A stretch of 64,000 nucleotides of DNA from Xanthomonas sp. CFBP 8443 (GTDB lineage: Bacteria; Pseudomonadota; Gammaproteobacteria; Xanthomonadales; Xanthomonadaceae), in contig NZ_CP102592.1 of the NCBI RefSeq assembly GCF_025666195.1, positions 1,984,001 through 2,048,000 on the forward strand. The letters are read 5' to 3'. Below the pieces are notes generated by a model, which saw only the letters and a program-made list of their open reading frames with translations, did not search any database and was not told where the DNA came from. The translations under genes were made by a program, and so were the position numbers. Below, one piece after another: positions 6,342 through 21,275 of this stretch. The stretch's first letter is position 1. Every line of letters starts with the position of its first letter.

Positions 6342-9230
6342 ATGTCGTTTCCACACGCAAACCCTTCCTCGCATCGCAACGCACCGGTGCCGCAGCCGCT
6401 GGCGCTGGCGGTGATCGCCGCGCTGTCGCTGGGCGCGTCGTGGTCGGCGCTGGCGCAGGAGGCGGACGCGGACGGCGGCAAGACCCAGACCCTGGACAGC
6501 ATCGTGGTCACCGGCTCGCGCCTGCGCCGCGTCGACACCGAAACCGCCAATCCGGTGGTGACCATCAGCCGCGCGCAGATCGAGGCCACCGGCAAGGCCA
6601 CGCTCGGCGATCTGGTGCAGGAACTGCCCTCGATCGCCGGCAACGCGACCAATCCCAACACCAACAACGGCGGCGGTACCGGCGCCTCGACCATCTCGCT
6701 GCGCGGCCTCGGCGACAAGCGCACACTGATCCTGGTCAACGGCACGCGCCTGGCCAGCAACGACGTCAACGCGATCCCGGCGACGATGATCGAGCGGGTG
6801 GAAGTGCTCAGCGACGGCGCCTCGGCGGTGTACGGCTCCGACGCGATCGGTGGCGTGGTCAACTTCATCCTGCGCAAGAGTTTCGACGGCATCGAGGCCA
6901 GCACCGATTTCGGCACCAGCTCGCGCAGCGACGGCAACCGCCGCAACTTCTCGCTGACCGCCGGCAAGACCTGGGACCGCGGCAGCGTGATCGCCGGCGT
7001 GTCCTACCACGACATCGATCCGGTGTCGGCCGGCGCGCGTGGCTACTCCAAGGATGCGCTGTCGCTGATCGGCGGCGTGCCGGTCAAGCAGGGCTCCTCG
7101 GCCACGCCGACCGGCAGCATCAGCTTCAACGACGGCTCGGCCCAGGCCAGGGCGCTGGCGGCCAGCAACGGCTGCTCGCGCGTCACCTTCAATGGCGGCA
7201 GCAGCAGCCCGACCGATCCCAGCCAGTACCACTGCTACGTCGCCTCCACCGATTCCTACAACTACCAGCCGTACAACCTGCTGCAGACCCCGCAGGAGCG
7301 CACCAACGCCTTCGTGATCGGCAGCTTCCGCTTCAACGATCACCTGGAAGGCTACGTCAACAGCTACTTCAGCAAGACCAGCTCGGCCTCGATCATCGCG
7401 CCGATCCCGATCTTCTCCAACGGCGACAACTTCCTGGTGTCCTCGGCCAGCTACTACAACCCGTTCGGGCTGAACTTCGGCACCGACCGCAGCGCCGGCC
7501 AGTCCTACAACGACTTCAACAGCCGCGCCACCGTGCTCGGCAATCGCCGCTACGAGTACAACACCTACAATTTCCAGATCAATCCGGGCCTGCGCGGCAG
7601 CTTCGGCGACAGCTCGTGGCAGTGGGACGCCAGCATCAACTACGGCAAGGTCAAGCAGAAATCGATCAACAACGGGTTCCTCGACTACGCCGGGTTCAAC
7701 GCCGCGGTCGGCCCCTCGTTCCTGGACAGCGACGGCACGGTCAAGTGCGGCAGCGCCGGCGCGGCGATCGCCGGCTGTACCCCGATCGACATCTTCAACC
7801 TCAACAGCCCCAACAACCTTGCCGCGCTGCAGGCATTGGTGGTCAACCCGATCGTCACCAGCGTGTACCGGGTCAAGCAGTTCGAGGCCAACGCCAACGG
7901 CAACCTGTTCGAGCTGCCGGCCGGCACCGTGAGCCTGGCCGCCGGCGTGTCCTACCGCAAGGAGAGCACCTCCACCGCCGCCGACGCGCTGTGGACGGGC
8001 GACGAGAACGGCCTGTGCGGGGTGATCGAATACTGCGCCACCGTGCTCGGCGGCAGTTTCAGCGTCAAGGAGGCCTATGCCGAGGCGCTGTTCCCGCTGC
8101 TGTCGGAACTGCCGCTGGTGCATTCGCTGAACTTGACCGTGGGCAGCCGCTTCTCCGACTACGACTCGGTCGGCAGCAAGACCAACAGCAAGGTTGCGCT
8201 GGAATGGCGCCCGATCGAGAACCTGCTGTTGCGCGGCACCGTCTCGCAGGTGTTCCGTGCGCCCAACATCAATGAACTGTATTCCGGCGTGGTCGGCGAT
8301 TCGGCCACGGTCAACGATCCCTGCAACGGCTACACCGGCGGCCACGAGGGCGCCTGCGCCAACGTGCCCACCGACGGCAGCTACCAGCAGGCGGACAACC
8401 AGATCGGGGCCAAGGCCTCGGGTGCGGTGGTGGCCGGCTACCAGCTCAAGCCGGAGACCGGCAAGTCCTACGATTTCGGCGTGGTCTACGATCCGGGCTG
8501 GCTGGACGGGCTGTCGATCAGCGCCGACGTGTGGCGCATCGATCTCAACGACACCATCACCACCGTGTCGGCGCAGACCGTGTTCAACCAGTGCTACGCC
8601 AACTCGGGCAGCGCGTTCTGCGCGCTGATCCACCGCAACGACAACGGCACCATCAACTACGTCGCCGAACCCACGGTCAACCTCGGCAAGCTGTGGGCGC
8701 GCGGCGCCGACTTCAGCCTCAACTACCGCCTGCCGGACACCGCCTGGGGCAGCTTCAACGCCGGCCTCAACGGCACCTACACCATCCGCTACGACGTCAA
8801 CCCGGACAGCACCGACCCTAACACCGTCACCATCCACAACGCCGGCAAGTACACCCAGGCCTACGGCAACTTCCCGCGCTGGCGCGCGCTCGGCACCCTG
8901 GGCTGGAATCTCGGCAACTGGAGCGCCAACTACCGCATGCGCTACATCGGCGCCACCGAGATCGGCAGCGCCGACGCGCGGCAGAACCTGTCGGCCGACG
9001 TCGGCGAGCCCGGGGTGGTGCGCGGCATCGGCGCCTACGTCTATCACAGCGCGCAAGTGGGTTACCAGTTCGCGCAGTGGCGCACCCGCGTCGAACTCGG
9101 CGTGGACAACCTCACCGACAAGCAGCCGCCGCTGTACTACGCCAACAACGTCGGCAACGCCAACACCGACGTGGCCACCTACGACCTGCTCGGCCGCTAC
9201 TACTGGGCGCGGGCGACGGTGAAGTTCTAG
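6342..9230 (+). CDS. TonB-dependent receptor, complete
   Basis: A 962-residue outer-membrane TonB-dependent transporter. The start at 6342 follows AGGAG with 6-nt spacing and begins a signal peptide cleaved after SALAQ. A TonB-box-like stretch DSIVVTGSRL is followed by the plug (ISLRGLGDKRTLILVNG, VEVLSDGASAVYGSDAIGGVVNFI) and a long barrel containing FRAPNINELY and DPCNGY, closing with YYWARATVKF. The plug sequence is typical of receptors expanded in Xanthomonas and Caulobacter for complex carbohydrate uptake. It is the probable importer partner of the GH127/GH27 enzymes and shares their upstream motif. Substrate is inferred from context. Confidence 0.95.
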   Translation: MSFPHANPSSHRNAPVPQPLALAVIAALSLGASWSALAQEADADGGKTQTLDSIVVTGSRLRRVDTETANPVVTISRAQIEATGKATLGDLVQELPSIAGNATNPNTNNGGGTGASTISLRGLGDKRTLILVNGTRLASNDVNAIPATMIERVEVLSDGASAVYGSDAIGGVVNFILRKSFDGIEASTDFGTSSRSDGNRRNFSLTAGKTWDRGSVIAGVSYHDIDPVSAGARGYSKDALSLIGGVPVKQGSSATPTGSISFNDGSAQARALAASNGCSRVTFNGGSSSPTDPSQYHCYVASTDSYNYQPYNLLQTPQERTNAFVIGSFRFNDHLEGYVNSYFSKTSSASIIAPIPIFSNGDNFLVSSASYYNPFGLNFGTDRSAGQSYNDFNSRATVLGNRRYEYNTYNFQINPGLRGSFGDSSWQWDASINYGKVKQKSINNGFLDYAGFNAAVGPSFLDSDGTVKCGSAGAAIAGCTPIDIFNLNSPNNLAALQALVVNPIVTSVYRVKQFEANANGNLFELPAGTVSLAAGVSYRKESTSTAADALWTGDENGLCGVIEYCATVLGGSFSVKEAYAEALFPLLSELPLVHSLNLTVGSRFSDYDSVGSKTNSKVALEWRPIENLLLRGTVSQVFRAPNINELYSGVVGDSATVNDPCNGYTGGHEGACANVPTDGSYQQADNQIGAKASGAVVAGYQLKPETGKSYDFGVVYDPGWLDGLSISADVWRIDLNDTITTVSAQTVFNQCYANSGSAFCALIHRNDNGTINYVAEPTVNLGKLWARGADFSLNYRLPDTAWGSFNAGLNGTYTIRYDVNPDSTDPNTVTIHNAGKYTQAYGNFPRWRALGTLGWNLGNWSANYRMRYIGATEIGSADARQNLSADVGEPGVVRGIGAYVYHSAQVGYQFAQWRTRVELGVDNLTDKQPPLYYANNVGNANTDVATYDLLGRYYWARATVKF

Positions 9231-9641: not shown

Positions 9642-10667
9642 CTACTCCAACAACTTCAGCAGGTCCCGGTGCAGGTCGTGCGGAATCCGCACACCCTCGC
9701 GGACGCTGCGTGCGCGTGCCTGATAGCGGCGTTGCGAGGGCAGCCGCGCACCGGTGTCCTGGTAGGCGGCGAAGAACGCCTCGGCGCGTGCCATGTGCGC
9801 CGCCCACTCCGCGCCCAGGAACCGCACCGGGTCCAAGGCGATGATCAATTCGCCGTGGTACGGGGAAGCGCCGGTGCCGGCGTCATGCGCCAGCGATTCG
9901 GCGCTGGTGAGGTCGCCGATCAGCGGCCCGGCGATCAGTTCGATCATGGCGGAAAGCGCCGAGCCCTTGTGTCCGCCGAAGGTCAGCATCGCGCCACCGC
10001 CGCCGGCGACCACGTTCGGATCGGTGGTCGGCCTGCCGGCGGCGTCCACCCCCCAGCCTTCGGGAATCGGCAGACCGGCGCGGCGGTGTAGTTCGATCTC
10101 GCCGCGCGCCACCGCGCTGGTGGCGAAATCGAACACGAAGGGAAGCGCGTCCCCGCGTGGCCAGCCGAACGCGAGCGGGTTGGTTCCCAGCAGGGGCGTG
10201 TGGCCACCGGCCGGCGTGACCCAGGCATGGCTGGGATTGCAGATCAGCGCGACCAGCCCGGCCTCGGTGATGCGTTCGACTTCCGGCCATAGCGCGGAGA
10301 AATGCACGCAATGGTTGATCGCCAGCGCCGCCAGCCCATTGCCGCGCGTCTTCTCGATCAGCGCCGGCAGGCCACGTTCGAACGCCAACAGCGAGAAGCC
10401 GCTGCGTGCATCGACGCGGACGATCCCGGGTGCCTGATCGTGCACGACCGGCTCGGCATCGCCCACGACCTTGCCATTGCGCAGCGTCGCCACGCATCCC
10501 AGGGTGCGGTAGAGCCCATGCGACGCGCAGCCGTCGCGTTCGCCCGCGACGATCGTGGCGGTGAGGGTTCGCACATGCGCCGGGCCGAAACCGGCATGGC
10601 GCAGGATGCGTTCGACCAATGCGGAAGCTTGATCCAAGGACAGTGCGACGGTATCGCTCGCGTTCAT
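9642..10667 (-). CDS. Malate/L-lactate dehydrogenase (Ldh_2) family oxidoreductase
   Basis: 341 residues, the normal length of this NAD(P)H-dependent family, which includes ureidoglycolate, 2,3-diketo-gulonate and piperideine-2-carboxylate reductases. The ATG at 10667 (MNASDTVALSLDQ) is preferred over the long upstream extension of the frame, which lacks protein character. Recognisable blocks are GDGCASHGLYR-like DGCASHG near residue 45, the catalytic-His region INHCVHFSALWPEVERI, the cofactor loop THAWVTPAGG-like HAWVTPAGGHTPLLGTNP, and FGGHKGSALSAMIELIAG. The gene is isolated and convergent with the TonB receptor. No neighbour identifies the substrate; cytoplasmic 2-oxo or imino acid reduction is the family role. 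Confidence 0.88.
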   Translation of the reverse strand: MNASDTVALSLDQASALVERILRHAGFGPAHVRTLTATIVAGERDGCASHGLYRTLGCVATLRNGKVVGDAEPVVHDQAPGIVRVDARSGFSLLAFERGLPALIEKTRGNGLAALAINHCVHFSALWPEVERITEAGLVALICNPSHAWVTPAGGHTPLLGTNPLAFGWPRGDALPFVFDFATSAVARGEIELHRRAGLPIPEGWGVDAAGRPTTDPNVVAGGGGAMLTFGGHKGSALSAMIELIAGPLIGDLTSAESLAHDAGTGASPYHGELIIALDPVRFLGAEWAAHMARAEAFFAAYQDTGARLPSQRRYQARARSVREGVRIPHDLHRDLLKLLE

Positions 10668-11116
10668 CGAAAAAGCGCGGAAGGGAGGATCTGGGATTCT
10701 CTCCCACGTCGCGCTTTGTGAAAACCTCGGGCTGCCAGCCAGCATCGAGGTTTGACATGCGTGCCAGTTGCGTCGCGCCATACAACGCCCACACATTTGG
10801 ATGACGTTGTAATGAATCGGTCGTACGCGAACTGCGTAGCGGCAAGCTGACGGCGCCGAACTTTTTGAGGCGAGGCCGCTCATCGGATGTTTGAAAATTT
10901 TCTTGACAGCCATCCCTGAATTAGTCAGATAATTCGACGAGGCCGGGATCCGGCCGACAGGGGATCCTCCGTTCGATCGATTGCCTCGCGCCTTGGCGCG
11001 ATAGGCTTGCATTGCGTTTTTCTGCGATTTTCGTTATCGCGATACTCCCCCGTTGGGAGCCTCGCGGTCATTCAGGGAATTCGGCCCGCAACGGGCTGAA
11101 AGGGAAGAGGCAAACG
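10668..11116. other. Divergent intergenic region upstream of RHS locus
   Basis: 449 bp between the divergent dehydrogenase and RHS genes. It becomes markedly AT-rich around 10855-10935, where a sigma-70-like promoter is recognisable; no gene was found. GGAAGAGG at 11103-11110 is the ribosome site of the RHS gene. Confidence 0.55.
10903..10933 (+). promoter_or_regulatory. Putative sigma-70 promoter of the RHS operon
   Basis: TTGACA at 10903-10908 and GATAAT at 10928-10933, separated by 19 bp, in an AT-rich stretch. It would give a leader of about 175 nt before the ATG at 11117. The spacer is slightly long, so this is a sequence-only prediction. Confidence 0.5.
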
Positions 11117-14100
11117 ATGGTCGGAATACGGCTGGTGATCGGCATGCTGCTGCTGTGCCTGGGTGCGCGTGCGCATGCGTCAGATGATTTGGGGCCCTAC
11201 GAGGAGTACGAGAAGAAGATCAAGGCCTCGCAGGTGGTTGGCCCGCTGAAGGGCGACATCTTCGGCGAGAGCATCAGTCTGTACAACATGAGCGTCAGCT
11301 TTTACGCCGCCGACGTGGACGTACCGGGCAACAACGGATTGCCCGTCGCGGTTGGACGCGAATTCAAGGTCATGAATCGACGTTCGGTATACGCGGCAAA
11401 AGGCTTCGGCGACTGGGAAATCGACACGCCGCGCGTCTATGGCGAGTTCCGAGCTGACATAGGCTGGGTGATAAAAGGCGCATCGCCTACTGCGCGATGT
11501 TCCATTCCTGCCATACCTGATGCGGCGATGACGATCGGAAGCGTTGCGTACAGCGCTTATGACATGTGGCATGGCTATTATTTGCATATCCCAGGTGCGG
11601 GCGAGCAGGAGTTGTTGGTCGACAACCAGACCAAGACGCCGCGCCCGACCGATGGCCTTGCGCGTCCGTGGATCACCAAGGATGGTTGGCGCTTGGGTTG
11701 TCTGGCCAATACGATCAACTATGGCGGCGAGGGCTTTCTGGCGATTTCGCCTGCCGGGGTTAAGTATTACTTCGATTACGCGATCGTCACCCCCATCGGT
11801 GGCTACGAGCAGGCGGGCACGGGTAATCCTGCTGTGCGTGCCCGCGTCGCGCTTGCGGCCAGCCGTGTCGAAGACCGCTTCGGCAACTGGGTGACGTACA
11901 GCTATACGGGCGACAAGCTGTCCTCCATCCAATCCAGCGACGGGCGCGCGATCGCGCTGAACTACAACGGCGACCTGATCAGCAGCATCCAGACCAATGG
12001 CCAGACCTGGACGTATGGGTACGAATTCAGTACCGCGTATCCATCGGCACAAGGGGCCTATCGCCTGAAGACGGTTACTCAACCCGATGGCTCGCAGTGG
12101 ACCTACAGCATCGTCAGCGGCAACATGCTGCCGAAGCGCGAGCCACCAGCCGGCGGTGGTGCTAGCAGTTGCGTCTATGAGCCTGATCTCATGGATGGCG
12201 CGGTTTCGCTGCAGGTGACCCATCCTTCCGGGGCCGTAGGCATGTTCGCTTTCGACTACCGACGTCAGTACCGGAGCCATACCCCCATCATCCGGTGTGC
12301 TCTACCGACGGGTCAGCAGCCGCCGAATCCTTATGTCCCCAACTACTCCGACAACTATGTCCTGACGTCGAAGATCGTGACGGGTCCGGGTCTAGCGCAG
12401 CAGGTTTGGCATTACCTGCCGGGCGAGGGCGTAACGCAATTTTACAAGACGGGCAAAGCGACCGATCCCTGCCCGACCTGCACGCCGAGCAAGACGGCCA
12501 AGGTGACCAATCCGGACGGCACCGCCACCGCTTACGAATTCGGAATCATGTACGGCCTCAACGATGGCCGCCTACTGAGTACCACGGCGCTGGATGCCAA
12601 CGGCAATACGCTGTCTAAGACCAGCAACACCTATTTCGCCGATGCCGACGTGGACGCGCAGCCCTTCCCTGCGGAAATGGGGCAGTCGTTGCTCGGTATT
12701 CCCAATCCCCTGACCAACGTGCTTCGCCCGCTGCGCAGCAAAGTCGTGCAGCAGAACGGCGTCTCCCACACTTGGACCGCAAACGGCTTCGATGCATTTG
12801 CACGTACGCTCAGCGTCACCCGTGCCAGCCCCTGGCACTCGCGCACGGATGCAACCGAGTACTACGACGATCTGGGCAAGTGGATCGTCGGCCAGAGCGC
12901 CAAGAGCACCAATACCAATACCGGGCTGGTAGAGTCGCAGACCAGCTACGACACCAATGCGATGCCGTCGCAACGCTGGTCGTTCGGCAAGTTGCGCCTG
13001 ACCCTGGGCTACAACAGCGACGGCACGCTGGCCACGGTCAAGGACGGCAACAACAACACGACCACCGTCTCCAACTGGAAACGCGGCGTCCCGCAATCGA
13101 TCCACTACGCCGACGGCAACACCGAGTCGGCCACGGTCAACGACAGCGGCTGGATCACCTCGACCACCGACGAGAACGGCTATACCACCACCTATGGCTA
13201 CGACGCCATGGGTCGGATGGCGAGCATCGCCTATCCGGCCAACGACAGCGTAGCTTGGAACACCACCACCCAGGCGTTCGAACAGGTCAACGGCAGCGAG
13301 TACGGGCTGGACGCCGGCCACTGGCGGCAGACCGTGGCCACCGGCAATGGGCGCAAGCTGACCTATTTCGATGCACTGTGGCGCCCGGTGCTGTCCCGCG
13401 AGTTCGATGCCGGCAACGAAGCCGGCACCCAGCGCTTCCAGAGGTTCGCCTACGACTACGACGGCCGTACCACGTTCAGCTCCTACCCTGGAACGTCCGA
13501 TTCGCTCAGCACCGGCACCTGGAACGAGTACGACGCGCTGGGCCGGGCGACCTCCGTGTCGCAAGATAGCGAACTGGGGCTGCTGACCACACGTACCGAA
13601 TACTTGCCGAATGGCCAGACCCGCGTAACGAATCCGCGTGGCCAACAGACGGTCAGCGGGTTCCAGATATTCGATCAGCCGGATTACGCCAAGCCGGTGT
13701 GGATCATGCATCCGGAAGGCGCCAATACCGACATCACGCTGGACGTGTTCGGTAAGCCGACGTCGATCCGCCGCCGCAATGCCGACAGTTCGCTGTCGGT
13801 CACGCGCAGCTACGTCTACGATGGCTATCAGCAGCTGTGCAAGACCATCGAGCCGGAAACCGGCGCCACGGTGATGGATTACGACGCGGCTGGGAACCTG
13901 GTCTGGTCGGCCAGCGGGCAGGGCTACACCTCGACTTCGGCTTGCAACAGCGCCGACGTTGCCGCCGGCGCCAAGGTCGGCAGAGGCTACGATGCGCGCA
14001 ACCGCCTGGCCACGCTCGCGTTTCCAGACGGCGTAGGCAATCAGTCTTTCGTCTACACCGCCGATGGACTGCCTGCGCAGGTGACCACCAACAACAGCAA

Positions 14101-16327
14101 CGGCGGCGACGCTGTAGTCAACGCGTATACCTATAACAAGCGCCGCCTGTTACAGAGCGAGAGCATGATCCAGCCGGGGTCGAGCGCGCTTGGCCTCAGC
14201 TACGCCTATACAGTCAACGGCCATCCGGCCGGCGGCACTTATCCTTCGGGATTGGCACTGAATTACGCGCCCAATGCACTGGGCCAGCCTACCCAGGCCA
14301 ACGGCTACGCAATGGGCGTGGGCTATTATCCGAACGGGGCGATCAAACAGTTCACCTACGGCAACGGCATCGTGCACACGATGGCGCAAAACGCGCGCCA
14401 GCTGCCGGCGCGCAGCTCCGATAGCGGCGCCAGCAATCCATTGGACTTGGGCTATGCCTACGATGCCAACGGCAACGTCGGAGGCATCACCGACTACGCG
14501 CATGGCCGGCAGACCCGCAGCATGAGCTACGACGGATCGGATCGCCTGTCCACCACGCAATCGGTGATGTTTGGCGGCGACAACCTGGCTCGCTACAGCT
14601 ACAACGTGCTCGACGACCTGACCGCGGTCAAGGTCGGCGGCAGTCGCGACTACAGCTATTTCTACAATGCCAATCGGCAACTGTTGAGCGTCAACAACAG
14701 TTCCGACAGCTCGGCGGTGATCGGGCTGAGCTACGACGCGCAGGGCAACCTGTCCAACAAGAACGGCATCCACTACCTGTTCGACAAGGGCAACCGTCTG
14801 CGTGAGGTCACCGGTGTGGAGACCTACCGCTACGACGCGCAAGGGCGCCGGGTGCTGGCCAACAGTCCGAGCCTGGGCAACATCGTCTCGCTGTACGGAC
14901 AGGACGGCGTGTTGCGCTACCAGCGCGACGAACGCGTCGGCAAGATCACCGAGTACGTGTACCTGGGCGGCAGCCTGCTGGCCAAGGTCAGCAACCTGCC
15001 GACGCTGGCCTCGCCCAGCGTGACCGTTCCCGGCTACAGCAGTTCCGGCAGTTACACCGTGCAGTGGTCGGCGGTGGCCTCGGCCAACCGCTACGAACTG
15101 CAGGAGCAGGCCAACGGTGGCAGCTGGGCCGCGCTGTATTCGGGAACTGCGAGCAGCCAGGCGATTTCCGGAAAGGCGGCAGGCAGCTACGGCTATCGCG
15201 CCCGTGCGTGCCTGGGTAGCTACTGCGGTGCGTGGAGCGCCATCGGCACGGCCGTGGTGCAGTTCGCCCCCAGCGATGCGCCCAGCATCAGCGTGCCCGG
15301 CACCGGCGTGGTCGGCAACTACACCATCAGCTGGGGCACGGTCACCGGCGCGGCCACATATGCGCTGGAAGAATGCGCCAACGGCGGCGCTTGGAGCGTG
15401 TCCTACAGCGGCAGCGCGCAGAGCAACGTCTATAGCGGCAAGGCAGCGGGCAGCTACGCGTATCGCTTGCGCGGCTGCAACCCCGCCGGGTGCGGTCCGT
15501 ACTCGGGCACCGGCACGGTACTCGCCGTGTATGCGCCAGCCGCGGCGCCCTCGCTCAGCGCACCAGCGACCAACACCACCGGCAGCTACACGCTCAGCTG
15601 GAGCACGGTGGCCAGCACCGTGAGCTACAACCTCGAAGAGAGCGCCAATGGCGGTGCCTGGACCGGCATCGCCTCGGTTCCCGGCACCAGCGCCGGGGTC
15701 GGTGGCCGCGGCGCCGGCACCTACCTGTACCGGATCAAGGCCTGCAATGCGGCCGGCTGCGGTCCATACTCGGGCAACGTCTCCACTCAAGTGATCTTCG
15801 CCCCGAGCGGCGCGCCCAGCCTGAGCACGCCTGCCAGCGCCGGTGTCAATGGGTACACGGTGAGCTGGAGCGGCGTGGCCAGCGCCAGCAGCTATGTTCT
15901 GGAAGAAAGCGCTAACAGCGGCGGCTGGACGGCCACGCAGAACGCCAGCGCCACCAGTCAGGCATTCACCGGCAAGGGCAACGGGAGCTACGCCTACCGG
16001 GCCAAGGCCTGCAACATCGCCGGCTGCGGACCGTACTCCAATACGCAGGCCACTGTGGTGGATACCTCGCCACCGGCCACGCCGTCGTTCAATACCGGCT
16101 ATCGCTACATCAACACCTCCCCAGCCACGTTCGAACTGGACTGGACGCCGAGGGCGCGCGCCACGCGGTACGAGATAAGTGGTGCGGTCAGCTACTCCGG
16201 ACCCAATACCTTCGTCACCTTGAGCAAGACCGGCAGCGTCAACACCGTGCAGGTGCGCGCTTGCAACGAGAACGGATGCTCGGCCTGGTCCGCCGTCTTC
16301 ACGCCGACGCTTGAGGGGAGAGGCTAA
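11117..16327 (+). CDS. Secreted RHS/YD-repeat protein with C-terminal tandem Fn3-like repeats, lacking its own core and tip
   Basis: 1736 residues. The ATG at 11117 follows GGAAGAGG and starts a Sec signal (LVIGMLLLCLGARAHA). Residues to about 1290 carry an RHS N-terminal region and many YD repeats (YDAMGRMASIAYP, YDAAGNLVWSA, YDAQGRRVLANS), which fold into a hollow shell in known RHS proteins. Then come four tandem segments of exactly 89 residues (from 15014, 15281, 15548, 15815) plus a divergent fifth from 16082, each with PS.S.P...YT.SW...A..Y.LEE and an ending like C..AGCGPYS, resembling fibronectin type III folds. The usual RHS core is missing here and is encoded by the next gene, which overlaps by one base (TAATG). 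Probably the encapsulating/stalk half of a toxin complex. Confidence 0.85.
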   Translation: MVGIRLVIGMLLLCLGARAHASDDLGPYEEYEKKIKASQVVGPLKGDIFGESISLYNMSVSFYAADVDVPGNNGLPVAVGREFKVMNRRSVYAAKGFGDWEIDTPRVYGEFRADIGWVIKGASPTARCSIPAIPDAAMTIGSVAYSAYDMWHGYYLHIPGAGEQELLVDNQTKTPRPTDGLARPWITKDGWRLGCLANTINYGGEGFLAISPAGVKYYFDYAIVTPIGGYEQAGTGNPAVRARVALAASRVEDRFGNWVTYSYTGDKLSSIQSSDGRAIALNYNGDLISSIQTNGQTWTYGYEFSTAYPSAQGAYRLKTVTQPDGSQWTYSIVSGNMLPKREPPAGGGASSCVYEPDLMDGAVSLQVTHPSGAVGMFAFDYRRQYRSHTPIIRCALPTGQQPPNPYVPNYSDNYVLTSKIVTGPGLAQQVWHYLPGEGVTQFYKTGKATDPCPTCTPSKTAKVTNPDGTATAYEFGIMYGLNDGRLLSTTALDANGNTLSKTSNTYFADADVDAQPFPAEMGQSLLGIPNPLTNVLRPLRSKVVQQNGVSHTWTANGFDAFARTLSVTRASPWHSRTDATEYYDDLGKWIVGQSAKSTNTNTGLVESQTSYDTNAMPSQRWSFGKLRLTLGYNSDGTLATVKDGNNNTTTVSNWKRGVPQSIHYADGNTESATVNDSGWITSTTDENGYTTTYGYDAMGRMASIAYPANDSVAWNTTTQAFEQVNGSEYGLDAGHWRQTVATGNGRKLTYFDALWRPVLSREFDAGNEAGTQRFQRFAYDYDGRTTFSSYPGTSDSLSTGTWNEYDALGRATSVSQDSELGLLTTRTEYLPNGQTRVTNPRGQQTVSGFQIFDQPDYAKPVWIMHPEGANTDITLDVFGKPTSIRRRNADSSLSVTRSYVYDGYQQLCKTIEPETGATVMDYDAAGNLVWSASGQGYTSTSACNSADVAAGAKVGRGYDARNRLATLAFPDGVGNQSFVYTADGLPAQVTTNNSNGGDAVVNAYTYNKRRLLQSESMIQPGSSALGLSYAYTVNGHPAGGTYPSGLALNYAPNALGQPTQANGYAMGVGYYPNGAIKQFTYGNGIVHTMAQNARQLPARSSDSGASNPLDLGYAYDANGNVGGITDYAHGRQTRSMSYDGSDRLSTTQSVMFGGDNLARYSYNVLDDLTAVKVGGSRDYSYFYNANRQLLSVNNSSDSSAVIGLSYDAQGNLSNKNGIHYLFDKGNRLREVTGVETYRYDAQGRRVLANSPSLGNIVSLYGQDGVLRYQRDERVGKITEYVYLGGSLLAKVSNLPTLASPSVTVPGYSSSGSYTVQWSAVASANRYELQEQANGGSWAALYSGTASSQAISGKAAGSYGYRARACLGSYCGAWSAIGTAVVQFAPSDAPSISVPGTGVVGNYTISWGTVTGAATYALEECANGGAWSVSYSGSAQSNVYSGKAAGSYAYRLRGCNPAGCGPYSGTGTVLAVYAPAAAPSLSAPATNTTGSYTLSWSTVASTVSYNLEESANGGAWTGIASVPGTSAGVGGRGAGTYLYRIKACNAAGCGPYSGNVSTQVIFAPSGAPSLSTPASAGVNGYTVSWSGVASASSYVLEESANSGGWTATQNASATSQAFTGKGNGSYAYRAKACNIAGCGPYSNTQATVVDTSPPATPSFNTGYRYINTSPATFELDWTPRARATRYEISGAVSYSGPNTFVTLSKTGSVNTVQVRACNENGCSAWSAVFTPTLEGRG
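15014..16324 (+). repeat. In-gene tandem repeat, exact 267-bp period
   Basis: Equivalent codons begin at 15014, 15281, 15548, 15815 and 16082, an exact spacing of 267 bp (89 codons). The first four copies are similar and the fifth is diverged. They encode Fn3-like modules at the end of the RHS-repeat protein. Confidence 0.85.
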
Positions 16328-17337
16328 TGAGCATCGGATACGAAATGAAAGGAATCGCCAAGCCCTTGATCAAACTGCTGTGGCTGCTGGTCCTCGCGCT
16401 GCCTCTTCATGCGGCGGCCGAAACAGTGGAGTACGTCCACACCGACGCCCTCGGAACCCCGATCGCGGTCACCGACGCCAGCGGGAACCTGATTGAGACC
16501 AGCGAGTACGAACCGTACGGCAAGCTGCTCAACCGTCCATTGACAGATGGGCCCGGATTCACTGGGCATGTGCAGGATGCGACCACCGGGCTGACATACA
16601 TGCAGCAGCGGTATTATGATCCAATAATTGGGAGGTTCTTGAGCGTGGACCCAGTTGGTACTGATAGCGGCAAAGACCAGAATTTCAATGGGTATTGGTA
16701 TGGAAATAATAATCCATTTGCGTTTTCGGACGCGGATGGAAGATGCACTGGTTCACACATAGAAAATAGAGACGGAACATGCGTGAGTTCCGGGGACTTT
16801 ACTACCCAAGGTCCTGGTCCAACGATGCGTGGTGCACAATCTGTCGTGCATCAAGCGTACATAGAGGCGCAACTCGGATTTGATCCTAGCAGCGCTTTTG
16901 CAGCTGCTGACGTGCCTGTTATACCTATGTTTTGCGAGTCTCCAGCCGACTGCGCTACTATCAGGCAGCAGAATCTATATTCTCAAGGAAGAATAAGTAG
17001 GAGTGAATTGATGGAGCACTATGAAGGCCAGGGCGGTGGGGCTCTGATTGGTGTGGGTGTTTTAGGGGTGGGATACGTCGCTGTAAGATTCCCGGTGGTT
17101 TTGTCCGCAACTGGAACCGCCATCAGATTCATTCGGCTTGGATATGAAGTAAGCGGGGGGAAGAATTTTCGTCTTGCTCCATTTGGGAATAGAACCGGCC
17201 ATCCTCTTGGAAGGTGGCCGCATTATCATCGAAGAGTGACGGACTCAAAAGGGGAGACATTGCCGGGCCAAGGAATAGGGAGGCATCGGCCCTGGGAGTC
17301 AAAGTCGACAGATAAATCACTTTGGGATAAATTCTAA
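16327..17337 (+). CDS. Secreted RHS core plus toxin tip protein
   Basis: 336 residues. The start overlaps the previous stop by one base, and a Sec signal (LIKLLWLLVLALPLHAAA) follows, so it appears to be a genuine separate protein. Residues about 35-130 are the RHS-associated core: VEYVHTDALGTPIAVTD, EYEPYGK, GFTGHVQDATTGLTYMQQRYYDPIIGRFLSVDP, normally fused to the YD repeats. The core ends in NNNPFAFSDADG, near where RHS proteins self-cleave. The tip contains a Gly-rich hydrophobic stretch (about residues 237-275) and a His/Arg/Trp-rich end with NRTGHPLGRWPHYHRR and GRHRPWE, which looks nuclease-like, though I cannot name the family. Base composition becomes AT-richer from about 16600, as expected for an exchanged toxin tip. 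Confidence 0.82.
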   Translation: MSIGYEMKGIAKPLIKLLWLLVLALPLHAAAETVEYVHTDALGTPIAVTDASGNLIETSEYEPYGKLLNRPLTDGPGFTGHVQDATTGLTYMQQRYYDPIIGRFLSVDPVGTDSGKDQNFNGYWYGNNNPFAFSDADGRCTGSHIENRDGTCVSSGDFTTQGPGPTMRGAQSVVHQAYIEAQLGFDPSSAFAAADVPVIPMFCESPADCATIRQQNLYSQGRISRSELMEHYEGQGGGALIGVGVLGVGYVAVRFPVVLSATGTAIRFIRLGYEVSGGKNFRLAPFGNRTGHPLGRWPHYHRRVTDSKGETLPGQGIGRHRPWESKSTDKSLWDKF

Positions 17338-17690
17338 TGAAGCCTCCTCTTATTCTGGTTGATGGCGGCGACGTAACTCTTTTTGGGTCTGAAAGTTCGC
17401 TCGTTCGTTATGTTGAGTCGCCTGACATAGGCGAGTATTTGGTATTTGATTCATCAGGAAAAAGGTTGGCTCTTGCTGCTGAGGTGGACGAAGTTAAATT
17501 TTTAGGCCTTAGGTTAAATAAAGTCGAATTGGTTAAGCTGGCGGAGCCTGCGTTTGGTTTGGATGAAAGTAGTGAGTTAAAAGTTATTCTAAATAGGTTC
17601 ATTTCACGAAGCTTTGGGGAAGAGAGGCAGGGCCTAAGCTTGTCTCAACTCATCGAAATACTGGAAAGTCGTTTAGGTGTAGTTGACTAG
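17337..17690 (+). CDS. Putative immunity protein for the RHS tip
   Basis: 117 residues, not recognised by sequence. Its ATG overlaps the stop of the toxin-tip gene by one base (TAATG), the same coupling used upstream. The protein is acidic and without a signal peptide or membrane segment, with beta-rich character (LILVDGGDVTLFG, EYLVFDSSGKRLAL, EVKFLGLRLNKVEL) and a helical C-terminus (LSQLIEILESRLG). Its DNA is much AT-richer than the rest of the window, matching the toxin tip. Small acidic cytosolic proteins encoded immediately 3' of polymorphic toxin tips are normally cognate immunity proteins, so the role is inferred from position. Confidence 0.65.
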   Translation: MKPPLILVDGGDVTLFGSESSLVRYVESPDIGEYLVFDSSGKRLALAAEVDEVKFLGLRLNKVELVKLAEPAFGLDESSELKVILNRFISRSFGEERQGLSLSQLIEILESRLGVVD

Positions 17691-17952
17691 CGCACATCCA
17701 TTGTCAGTTAGGAGGGGCGGCAAAGGCGGATGCTGGACTACTTGCAAAAGCCTATGCCACCAACCAGGGTGCTGCATTGATTGTTCAGGATTTGACTCTA
17801 GCCGTGTTGGCTATGCCATTTGCACAATCCGTCCCGAATGTATTGTCGCAAGCCGATACTGCAGTGAAGGTATCAACCGCGGTGGAATGACACTCAATTC
17901 AAGAGCCGAAGGTTTAGGCCTTGACAAGGTCAAGATCTTTAGCAGGAGATGA
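17687..17952 (+). pseudogene. Decayed fragment, possibly an orphan RHS toxin tip
   Basis: Directly after the immunity gene a frame without a start (17687-17890) encodes a hydrophobic helix-rich stretch including GLLAKAYATNQGAALIVQDL and VLAMPFAQSVPNVLSQADT before a TGA; an overlapping frame runs on to 17952. Composition is as AT-rich as the toxin tip. Such stretches resemble the linker/translocation part of polymorphic toxins, and displaced tip remnants commonly follow active toxin/immunity pairs. I cannot identify a homologue, so the assignment is tentative. Confidence 0.4.
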
Positions 17953-17987
17953 CCCGGTCTTCCCATCGCTGCAGCGTCGGCGGCTGA

Positions 17988-21275
<3,288 letters not shown>

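Follow-up and report, generated by a model that had tools for sequence, protein, structure and literature searches.

A two-piece RHS toxin of Xanthomonas, probably exported as separate shell and core proteins

Introduction

The usual picture of an RHS cocoon, Tc toxins apart, is a single chain that folds around the toxin it carries. RhsA of Pseudomonas protegens is an example; according to the sections of the paper drawn on here, the seal on its YD cocoon is a C-terminal autoprotease region whose two catalytic aspartates, D1324 and D1346, are both needed to free the toxin by cutting at PxxxxDPxG[W/L/F] (PMC8765631). In Tc toxins, by the portions of PMC11067744 used here, the cocoon is formed by two polypeptides, TcB and TcC, and several TcC subunits can serve one TcB. 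The one-polypeptide rule for RHS toxins is thus usual, not universal. Sec-exported WapA-type toxins are described, in the part of PMC3482391 used here, as going out by T2SS/Sec export; that part of its text contains “split” once and “fn3” nowhere.

The closest studied system to the locus described here is Bcn-A of Xanthomonas perforans (Marutani-Hert et al., 2020; GenBank AF454545.2 as cited in PMC7259588). In the excerpts of PMC7259588 relied on here, Bcn-A comprises ORFA (long, RHS-like, 1398 aa), ORF2 (124 aa), ORF3 (100 aa), ORF4 (290 aa; it has a signal peptide and is to some extent identical to both WapA and RhsA), and ORF5 (145 aa, immunity). Activity is abolished without ORFA, ORF2, or ORF4 and reduced without ORF3; it is found in the supernatant at 50 kDa and above, with none in cells, and is lost without xpsD. 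The authors took ORFA as the toxic component, gave ORF4 a role in delivery or processing, and described ORFA as having no signal sequence (PMC7259588). Among open-licence PMC papers, no title or abstract beginning was found announcing a separately exported RHS shell and core.

Materials and Methods

The window is a 64,000-nt stretch of Xanthomonas sp. CFBP 8443 (contig NZ_CP102592.1, positions 1,984,001 to 2,048,000); the host genome is a single contig of 5.24 Mb. Relatives were taken from 100 genomes of the genus, family, and order, ranked by kinship and including the own genome; the core protein was matched in 75 of them. The loci compared are 40 fetched stretches (one being the own genome’s second locus) and 78 named loci, with 8 duplicates dropped. 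Named loci come from the best 80 of 504 confirmed matches in the named collection, and the counts below are not frequencies. Core matches were classified only if they had at least 80 aligned residues. The end of one stretch (L086) repeats a gene of another (L088), and one cut copy is counted among both the 78 N-shells and the 53 C-shells without core.

Signal-peptide-like calls combine a simple hydropathy rule with inspection by eye. Because 17 of 62 fused cores were positive by the initial rule as well, the segments before cores were counted at a stricter cut-off; the ORFs compared in these counts are related sequences. The AlphaFold model of the cocoon is that of L092, a relative in which C-shell and core are naturally fused (872 aa; 30 sequences).

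The Window Locus

The original prediction described a YD-repeat protein ending after Fn3-like repeats, a core with a variable tip as a separate protein with its own signal peptide, and one-base TAATG overlaps joining three genes. The ORFs, the tail repeats, and both junctions are present as described, with “Fn3-like” resting on sequence pattern and “signal-peptide-like” on the hydropathy rule and inspection by eye. The features, in window coordinates, are:

9642-11012, reverse strand: Ldh-type gene, flanking the toxin site
11117..16327, forward strand: shell gene, 1736 aa, with signal-peptide-like start, N-shell, C-shell (YD barrel), and Fn3-like tail
11117..11182, forward strand: signal-peptide-like segment of the shell, MVGIRLVIGMLLLCLGARAHAS, by hydropathy rule and by eye
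12830..15004, forward strand: C-shell, shell residues 572 to about 1296, a separate gene in some related loci (joint A at about residue 572)
15014..16324, forward strand: five Fn3-like repeats at the shell end, four of 89 aa and one of 81 aa
16325..16329, forward strand: shell/core junction TAATG, read from the sequence
16327..17337, forward strand: core plus tip gene, 336 aa, ATG at 16327 and TAA at 17335-17337
16327..16419, forward strand: signal-peptide-like segment of the core, ending in LPLHAAA, with the first core strand ETVEYVHTD directly after
16420..16743, forward strand: RHS core, barrel-closing strands plus predicted aspartyl autoprotease, by sequence matches
16648-16650, forward strand: catalytic-type Asp108 of the core, by alignment
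16729-16731, forward strand: catalytic-type Asp135 of the core, by alignment
16744..17334, forward strand: variable tip, presumed toxin; tips vary among loci
17335..17339, forward strand: tip/immunity junction TAATG, read from the sequence
17337..17690, forward strand: presumed cytoplasmic immunity gene, 117 aa, third gene of the locus
16500..17999, no strand: low-GC stretch, GC 0.43-0.52 against 0.59-0.69 in the shell
18060-20726, reverse strand: htpG, flanking the toxin site

The shell ORF runs from an ATG at 11117 to a TAA at 16325-16327. Shell and core are in different reading frames, so that the split is not one suppressed stop codon; the two genes are probably translation-coupled. In a Pfam/NCBIfam profile search the shell matched RHS_repeat (PF05593, 69.3 bits) and YD_repeat_2x (TIGR01643), and the core matched PF03527 (34 bits) and Rhs_assc_core (TIGR03696, 72.6 bits). 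The shell repeats of 81-89 aa are Fn3-like by sequence pattern only: Pfam gave no fn3 match in the window shell, and one E-set-type match in its tail (ChitinaseA_N, 26.6 bits against a cut-off of 21.2). Nor did Pfam find a PAAR or VgrG family or an SpvB domain in the window shell, and no Pfam match at the locus names an export machine.

GC content falls from about 16500 and stays low through the tip and immunity gene, which by composition is as expected of an exchanged cassette. The low-GC stretch continues between the immunity gene and htpG (17690-17960) with no recognisable gene, perhaps the remnant of an older cassette; blastx of 17690-18060 against all fetched loci matched only the window’s own ORFs.

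The toxin site lies between the Ldh-type gene and htpG, and both neighbors are also found in L043-L047; L048 has the htpG neighbor only, within its fetched stretch. In other Xanthomonas the same site holds type-1 or type-2 loci (see below), two of the latter (L059 and L071) with both neighbors. On the reverse strand of L047, a second core cassette follows a fragment of Fn3-like tail, with a 90-aa htpG fragment nearby, as if a block had been duplicated.

Distribution and Inheritance of the Split

Adjacent shell and core genes occur in 28 pairs, which come from Xanthomonas, Stenotrophomonas, [Pseudomonas] hibiscicola, Lysobacter, Pseudoxanthomonas, Luteimonas, Mizugakiibacter, another genus of the family (G050), and a metagenome bin. 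In every pair the shell, in a few cases cut or broken upstream, has 4-7 Fn3-like repeats at its end. The same split with conserved TAATG junctions had been proposed as a thing to look for in related genomes; the split is there, but TAATG stands at the shell/core junction in only 2 of the 28 pairs (the window and L058), with TGATG in L069, and is rejected as its conserved mark. A candidate core start lies at -4 or -1 from the shell stop in 16 pairs, and at +1 to +21 in the remaining 12 (nearest candidate). These varying offsets, with the cores’ own signal-peptide-like starts, rule out programmed frameshifting or read-through.

The repeats go with the break: 43 of 53 C-shell ORFs without a core carry them, against 0 of 54 C-shell ORFs with one. 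The ten repeat-free exceptions are five upstream pieces of a third joint described below (L077, L079, L081, L094, and L141), three that run off their stretch (L148, L066, and L086), and two others (L078 and L142).

On a tree of 72 C-shells, the split/fused label changes 5 times (23.7 in shuffles), with 4 changes forced by starred branches. This makes the split state heritable and means that splitting, or transfer of the split with a 3′ block, took place more than once. The window shell belongs to a starred clade (100*) of seven split Xanthomonas shells, enclosed by an all-split group of 32 rows from several genera (support 93, not starred). The original prediction had set against itself the case that close relatives all encode one fused protein; the six other Xanthomonas loci of the window shell clade are instead all split. 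A recent nonsense mutation is ruled out, the split being kept across genera and on the tree.

dN/dS is 0.05-0.17 for shell, tail, and core (six comparisons); judged by these ratios, all three are under purifying selection. The view that this is a working arrangement rather than a chance frameshift thus stands on an inherited split under purifying selection, and not on the TAATG overlaps from which it was first argued. dS is higher in the core (1.1-1.4) than in the shell (0.3-0.8), which points to exchange of cores. Shell and core divergence are correlated (r 0.64, 0 of 5000 permutations). The nearest core sits beside the same shell type for 37 of 40 cores, but beside one of the three closest shells for only 22 of 40, so that pairing is loose at fine scale.

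Where the Cocoon Is Cut

The AlphaFold model of the fused relative (pLDDT 85.9, pTM 0.81) has a fold that matches solved Rhs, Tc, and teneurin cocoons; its residues 833-872, most of the autoprotease loop, are below 50. The joint between shell and core (joint B) falls in the turn between the neighboring barrel strands 742-750 and 756-763 of this model, and the window’s Fn3-like tail begins soon after the strand preceding it. The last barrel strands are in the core, and the shell is without them. With the break in a turn between neighboring strands, shell plus core would, by the model, hold each strand once. A prediction for the window core alone was uninformative (pLDDT 51.7, pTM 0.23).

Joint B alone is used in 35 loci, joint A alone in 15 pairs, both in 5 loci, and neither in 16. 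A third joint, at about residues 332-348 of the model, is used in L077, L079, L081, L094, L141, and the cut L148, with an Ig-like stretch ahead of the break in L079, L141, and L148.

Two single loci deserve mention here. L108 has seven Fn3-like repeats at the end of its N-shell, at joint A, followed by a gene in which C-shell and core are fused; by their position, these repeats mark a break at another joint. In L060 the N-part of the shell is separate, and a transposase-like ORF (700-1830) stands between it and the C-shell, which keeps a signal-peptide-like start of its own.

Predicted Export Signals

At the stricter cut-off, 63 of 74 core ORFs without C-shell have a strong hydrophobic segment ahead of the core, as against 2 of 59 with C-shell. 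Ten of the 11 separate cores failing it are by eye fragments or cut pieces; the other, L101, fails despite belonging to an adjacent pair and having a segment that is plausible by eye, and is the one exception among the 28 adjacent cores (27 pass). Downstream pieces at joint A begin with a signal-peptide-like segment in 20 of 22 cases (L090 and L123 fail the rule; L152 passes, but is doubtful by eye), while the same place in unbroken ORFs has one in 0 of 57. So do 74 of 78 N-shells and, by eye, the third-joint pieces of L077, L079, and L081. Each piece of the split RHS loci seems, from these segments, to have its own export signal. The small-x-small site nearest the HTD of the first core strand (a loose motif, taken as a predicted cleavage site) is six residues before it in 51 of 72 split cores; cleaved there, the mature core would start at the strand after joint B.

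Core, Tip, and Putative Immunity

Across two overlapping alignments, of 22 and of 27 rows, Asp108 and Asp135 of the core never vary, and they align with the catalytic dyad of RhsA. The window core retains both catalytic-type autoprotease aspartates, with Arg at the cleavage position in place of the Trp, Leu, or Phe of the published consensus.

The last 61 residues of the tip are 64% identical to a protein in a genus of another family, where it adjoins an 82-aa protein that is 33% identical over 73 residues to the window’s third gene. In a sister species (G007), core and tip are matched over their whole length at 85%, and the neighboring gene at 59%. This recurrence of tip with neighbor supports a toxin-immunity pair, which tip and third gene are presumed to be. 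Among the matches listed in a tip search of 369 genomes of the class were the own genome and one other, the copy in G007 not being among them. No toxin or immunity family was found for tip or third gene in Pfam or NCBIfam (max_evalue 10, where the HMMER filters drop most weak matches). The copy in the other family is an orphan tip-plus-neighbor pair (L161, 1504-1937) that immediately follows an adenylate-kinase-like ORF.

Some loci have more than one core: two stand behind one shell in L057, L110, and L136, and four in L060. The L060 cores share one leader and are almost alike in the first part of the core, but their tips have no significant similarity to each other (best E 0.07). Orphan Rhs tips usually lack a start. 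Some cores here without a shell upstream in the fetched stretch keep both a start and a signal-peptide-like segment.

Loci Resembling Bcn-A

Fifteen shells forming one starred clade (99*), with one Fn3-like repeat and an LLYQLLLN-like end, define the type-2 loci. Their order is shell, then small gene or genes, then core, with at least one small gene in all 15; the small genes have signal-peptide-like starts by eye. The small-protein families between shell and core (L062, reverse strand, 8448-9157, and relatives) are seen in type-2 loci only. The small proteins gave no Pfam match, and for one of them sub-cut-off NCBIfam matches; four small-gene queries and one tail query from type-2 loci found no match in type-1 loci. 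The own genome’s second split RHS locus (L042, C1:204722-205084, at 0.2 Mb) is of type 2. At 3.73 and 5.21 Mb the same genome has RHS-repeat ORFs of 1583-1590 aa, with weak core matches inside, which look fused.

In gene sizes and order Bcn-A resembles the type-2 loci, for example L062, where a shell of 1403 is followed by one more small ORF, small ORFs of 130 and 103, and a core of about 346. Ten Bcn-A primers compared with 29 loci gave mostly noise, and only the shell-end primer and translated peptides were used. Three primers encode peptides of type-2 gene ends (LYQLLL, PVDLYVDGC, and AGCDIVA), and the shell-end primer has its best match on the LYQLLL codons in 7 of 16 type-2 loci tested. 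One primer searched as a pattern in 20 genomes of the genus gave two 3-mismatch matches, taken as chance.

By analogy with these loci, Bcn-A ORF4 as published would be an RHS core plus toxin, and Bcn-A very likely has the same split architecture, published without recognition of its core. A signal-peptide-like start is present in the type-2 shells and N-shells examined, contrary to the authors’ description of ORFA.

Possible Assembly and Release

We consider it probable that the locus encodes a two-piece, Sec-exported RHS toxin that assembles in the periplasm and leaves, most likely, by type II release. The shell, an open barrel with its Fn3-like tail, and the core would cross the inner membrane separately via Sec. 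In the periplasm the first strand of the core would dock on the last YD strand of the shell, sealing the cocoon, and the core autoprotease would cut the tip loose inside. The assembled complex would then be released, the likeliest route being the type II secretion reported for Bcn-A, and would act on competing bacteria, with the immunity protein staying in the cytoplasm. The observations behind this are the layout of the genes, the conservation of the split, the selection on its parts, the strand-exact break in the model of a fused relative, and the conserved catalytic-type aspartates; how the pieces dock, where they assemble, how they are exported, whether the core cuts itself, and whether this tip is toxic are matters of prediction.

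Since relatives keep the same split, shell and core probably come together only once they are out of the cytoplasm. Reassembly of core and shell there, as first suggested, is the best reading of the strand-exact break in the model and of Bcn-A genetics, with the binding itself deduced from them. Type II secretion takes folded proteins from the periplasm, and GspD is present in the own genome. Release by this route is the weaker part, carried over from Bcn-A to a window that is without the small genes of the type-2 loci. Their absence counts against the model as a whole too, the counterpart ORF2 being reported essential in Bcn-A, as do the reported want of a signal sequence in ORFA (both from the parts of PMC7259588 used here), the Arg at the cleavage position, the loose fine-scale pairing of cores with shells, and the poor prediction for the window core. 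The own genome also encodes a T6SS, which was counted against the model as well, but Pfam shows no PAAR or VgrG part in the shell.

Retention on the cell surface is a second possibility: after the same reassembly the complex, perhaps held by the Fn3-like tail, would act by contact and need no type II secretion. Surface proteins commonly have Fn3 arrays, which was counted in its favor, together with the restriction of the tail to places where the chain is broken, the lack at the window of the small exported type-2 proteins, and the lack of an export machine named by Pfam at the locus. It is nevertheless thought unlikely, given that Bcn-A activity is reported in the supernatant, with none in the cell fraction, and depends on xpsD (PMC7259588, in the part used here).

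As a third possibility, the pieces might act apart, the shell as an exported adhesin or carrier and the core plus tip as a small secreted bacteriocin. Separate signal-peptide-like starts on shell and core would suit this, as would the cores without a shell upstream in the fetched stretch; the placing of the last barrel strands in the core, with the shell lacking them, and the reported need for both ORFA and ORF4 in Bcn-A (PMC7259588, same part) make it improbable. That the locus is a decaying, accidentally split RHS gene has next to no probability: RHS loci often carry broken copies, and there are broken or cut pieces among the relatives (the second copy in L047, and L060), but conservation of the split in many genera already refutes it, and the new signal peptide and Fn3-like tail at the break and the dN/dS of 0.05-0.17 speak against it.

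The two-piece toxin with periplasmic assembly may have a wider setting. Tentatively, with the balance tipped slightly against it, a kit-built class of RHS toxins may exist in Xanthomonadales, in which the cocoon would go out in two or three separate Sec substrates, with the break at any one of three joints (before the barrel, mid-barrel, or before the seal) and often marked by Fn3- or Ig-like domains; it would then be reassembled in the periplasm and released folded by type II secretion. Seal-plus-toxin subunits would let one shell load any of several toxins without recombining into a fused gene, and Bcn-A would belong to this class, its toxin having been attributed to the wrong gene.

If the two-piece reading is true, docking of a plug-and-toxin subunit on an exported shell is another way to load a cocoon, and separate pieces suggest how so large a toxin passes Sec. 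Exchanging a toxin would then take an added gene rather than a spliced one, and Bcn-A of X. perforans would gain a concrete molecular reading.

Comparison with Known RHS Systems

The RHS/YD polymorphic toxins usually have shell, core, and tip in one polypeptide; in the window they take two genes in different frames. The suggestion of a new assembly logic holds in part: a two-protein RHS shell is known from TcB-TcC, and Bcn-A very likely shares the architecture of the window locus, while the separate export of shell and core would be a variant. The likeness to Tc toxins lies in an RHS cocoon of two polypeptides with the toxin behind an aspartyl autoprotease (PMC11067744, in the part used here). 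However, TcC aligns with the L092 model from residue 288 on, whereas joint B lies at about 750, so that TcC takes in a large part of the barrel and the window core only its end. Joint B is accordingly rejected as the TcB/TcC break, and the third joint is nearer to that position without being the same.

T6SS RhsA differs in being one polypeptide, with PAAR and no signal peptide, whose pieces arise by autocleavage and not from separate genes (in the sections of PMC8765631 cited above); the window shell is unlike T6SS Rhs effectors in having a signal-peptide-like start and no PAAR/VgrG family. The Sec-exported, WapA-type toxins share with the window a signal peptide, RHS repeats, a variable tip, and immunity, but are single polypeptides, as the cited part of PMC3482391 has it. 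Bcn-A is the nearest, with a separate RHS shell and a signal-peptide-bearing core gene, then immunity, as in the window; it is likened to type-2 loci by gene sizes, order, and three primer peptides rather than by whole sequence. It differs from the window in the small genes ORF2 and ORF3 between shell and core, where the window shell abuts its core, and its type-2 counterparts have one Fn3-like repeat where the window shell has five.
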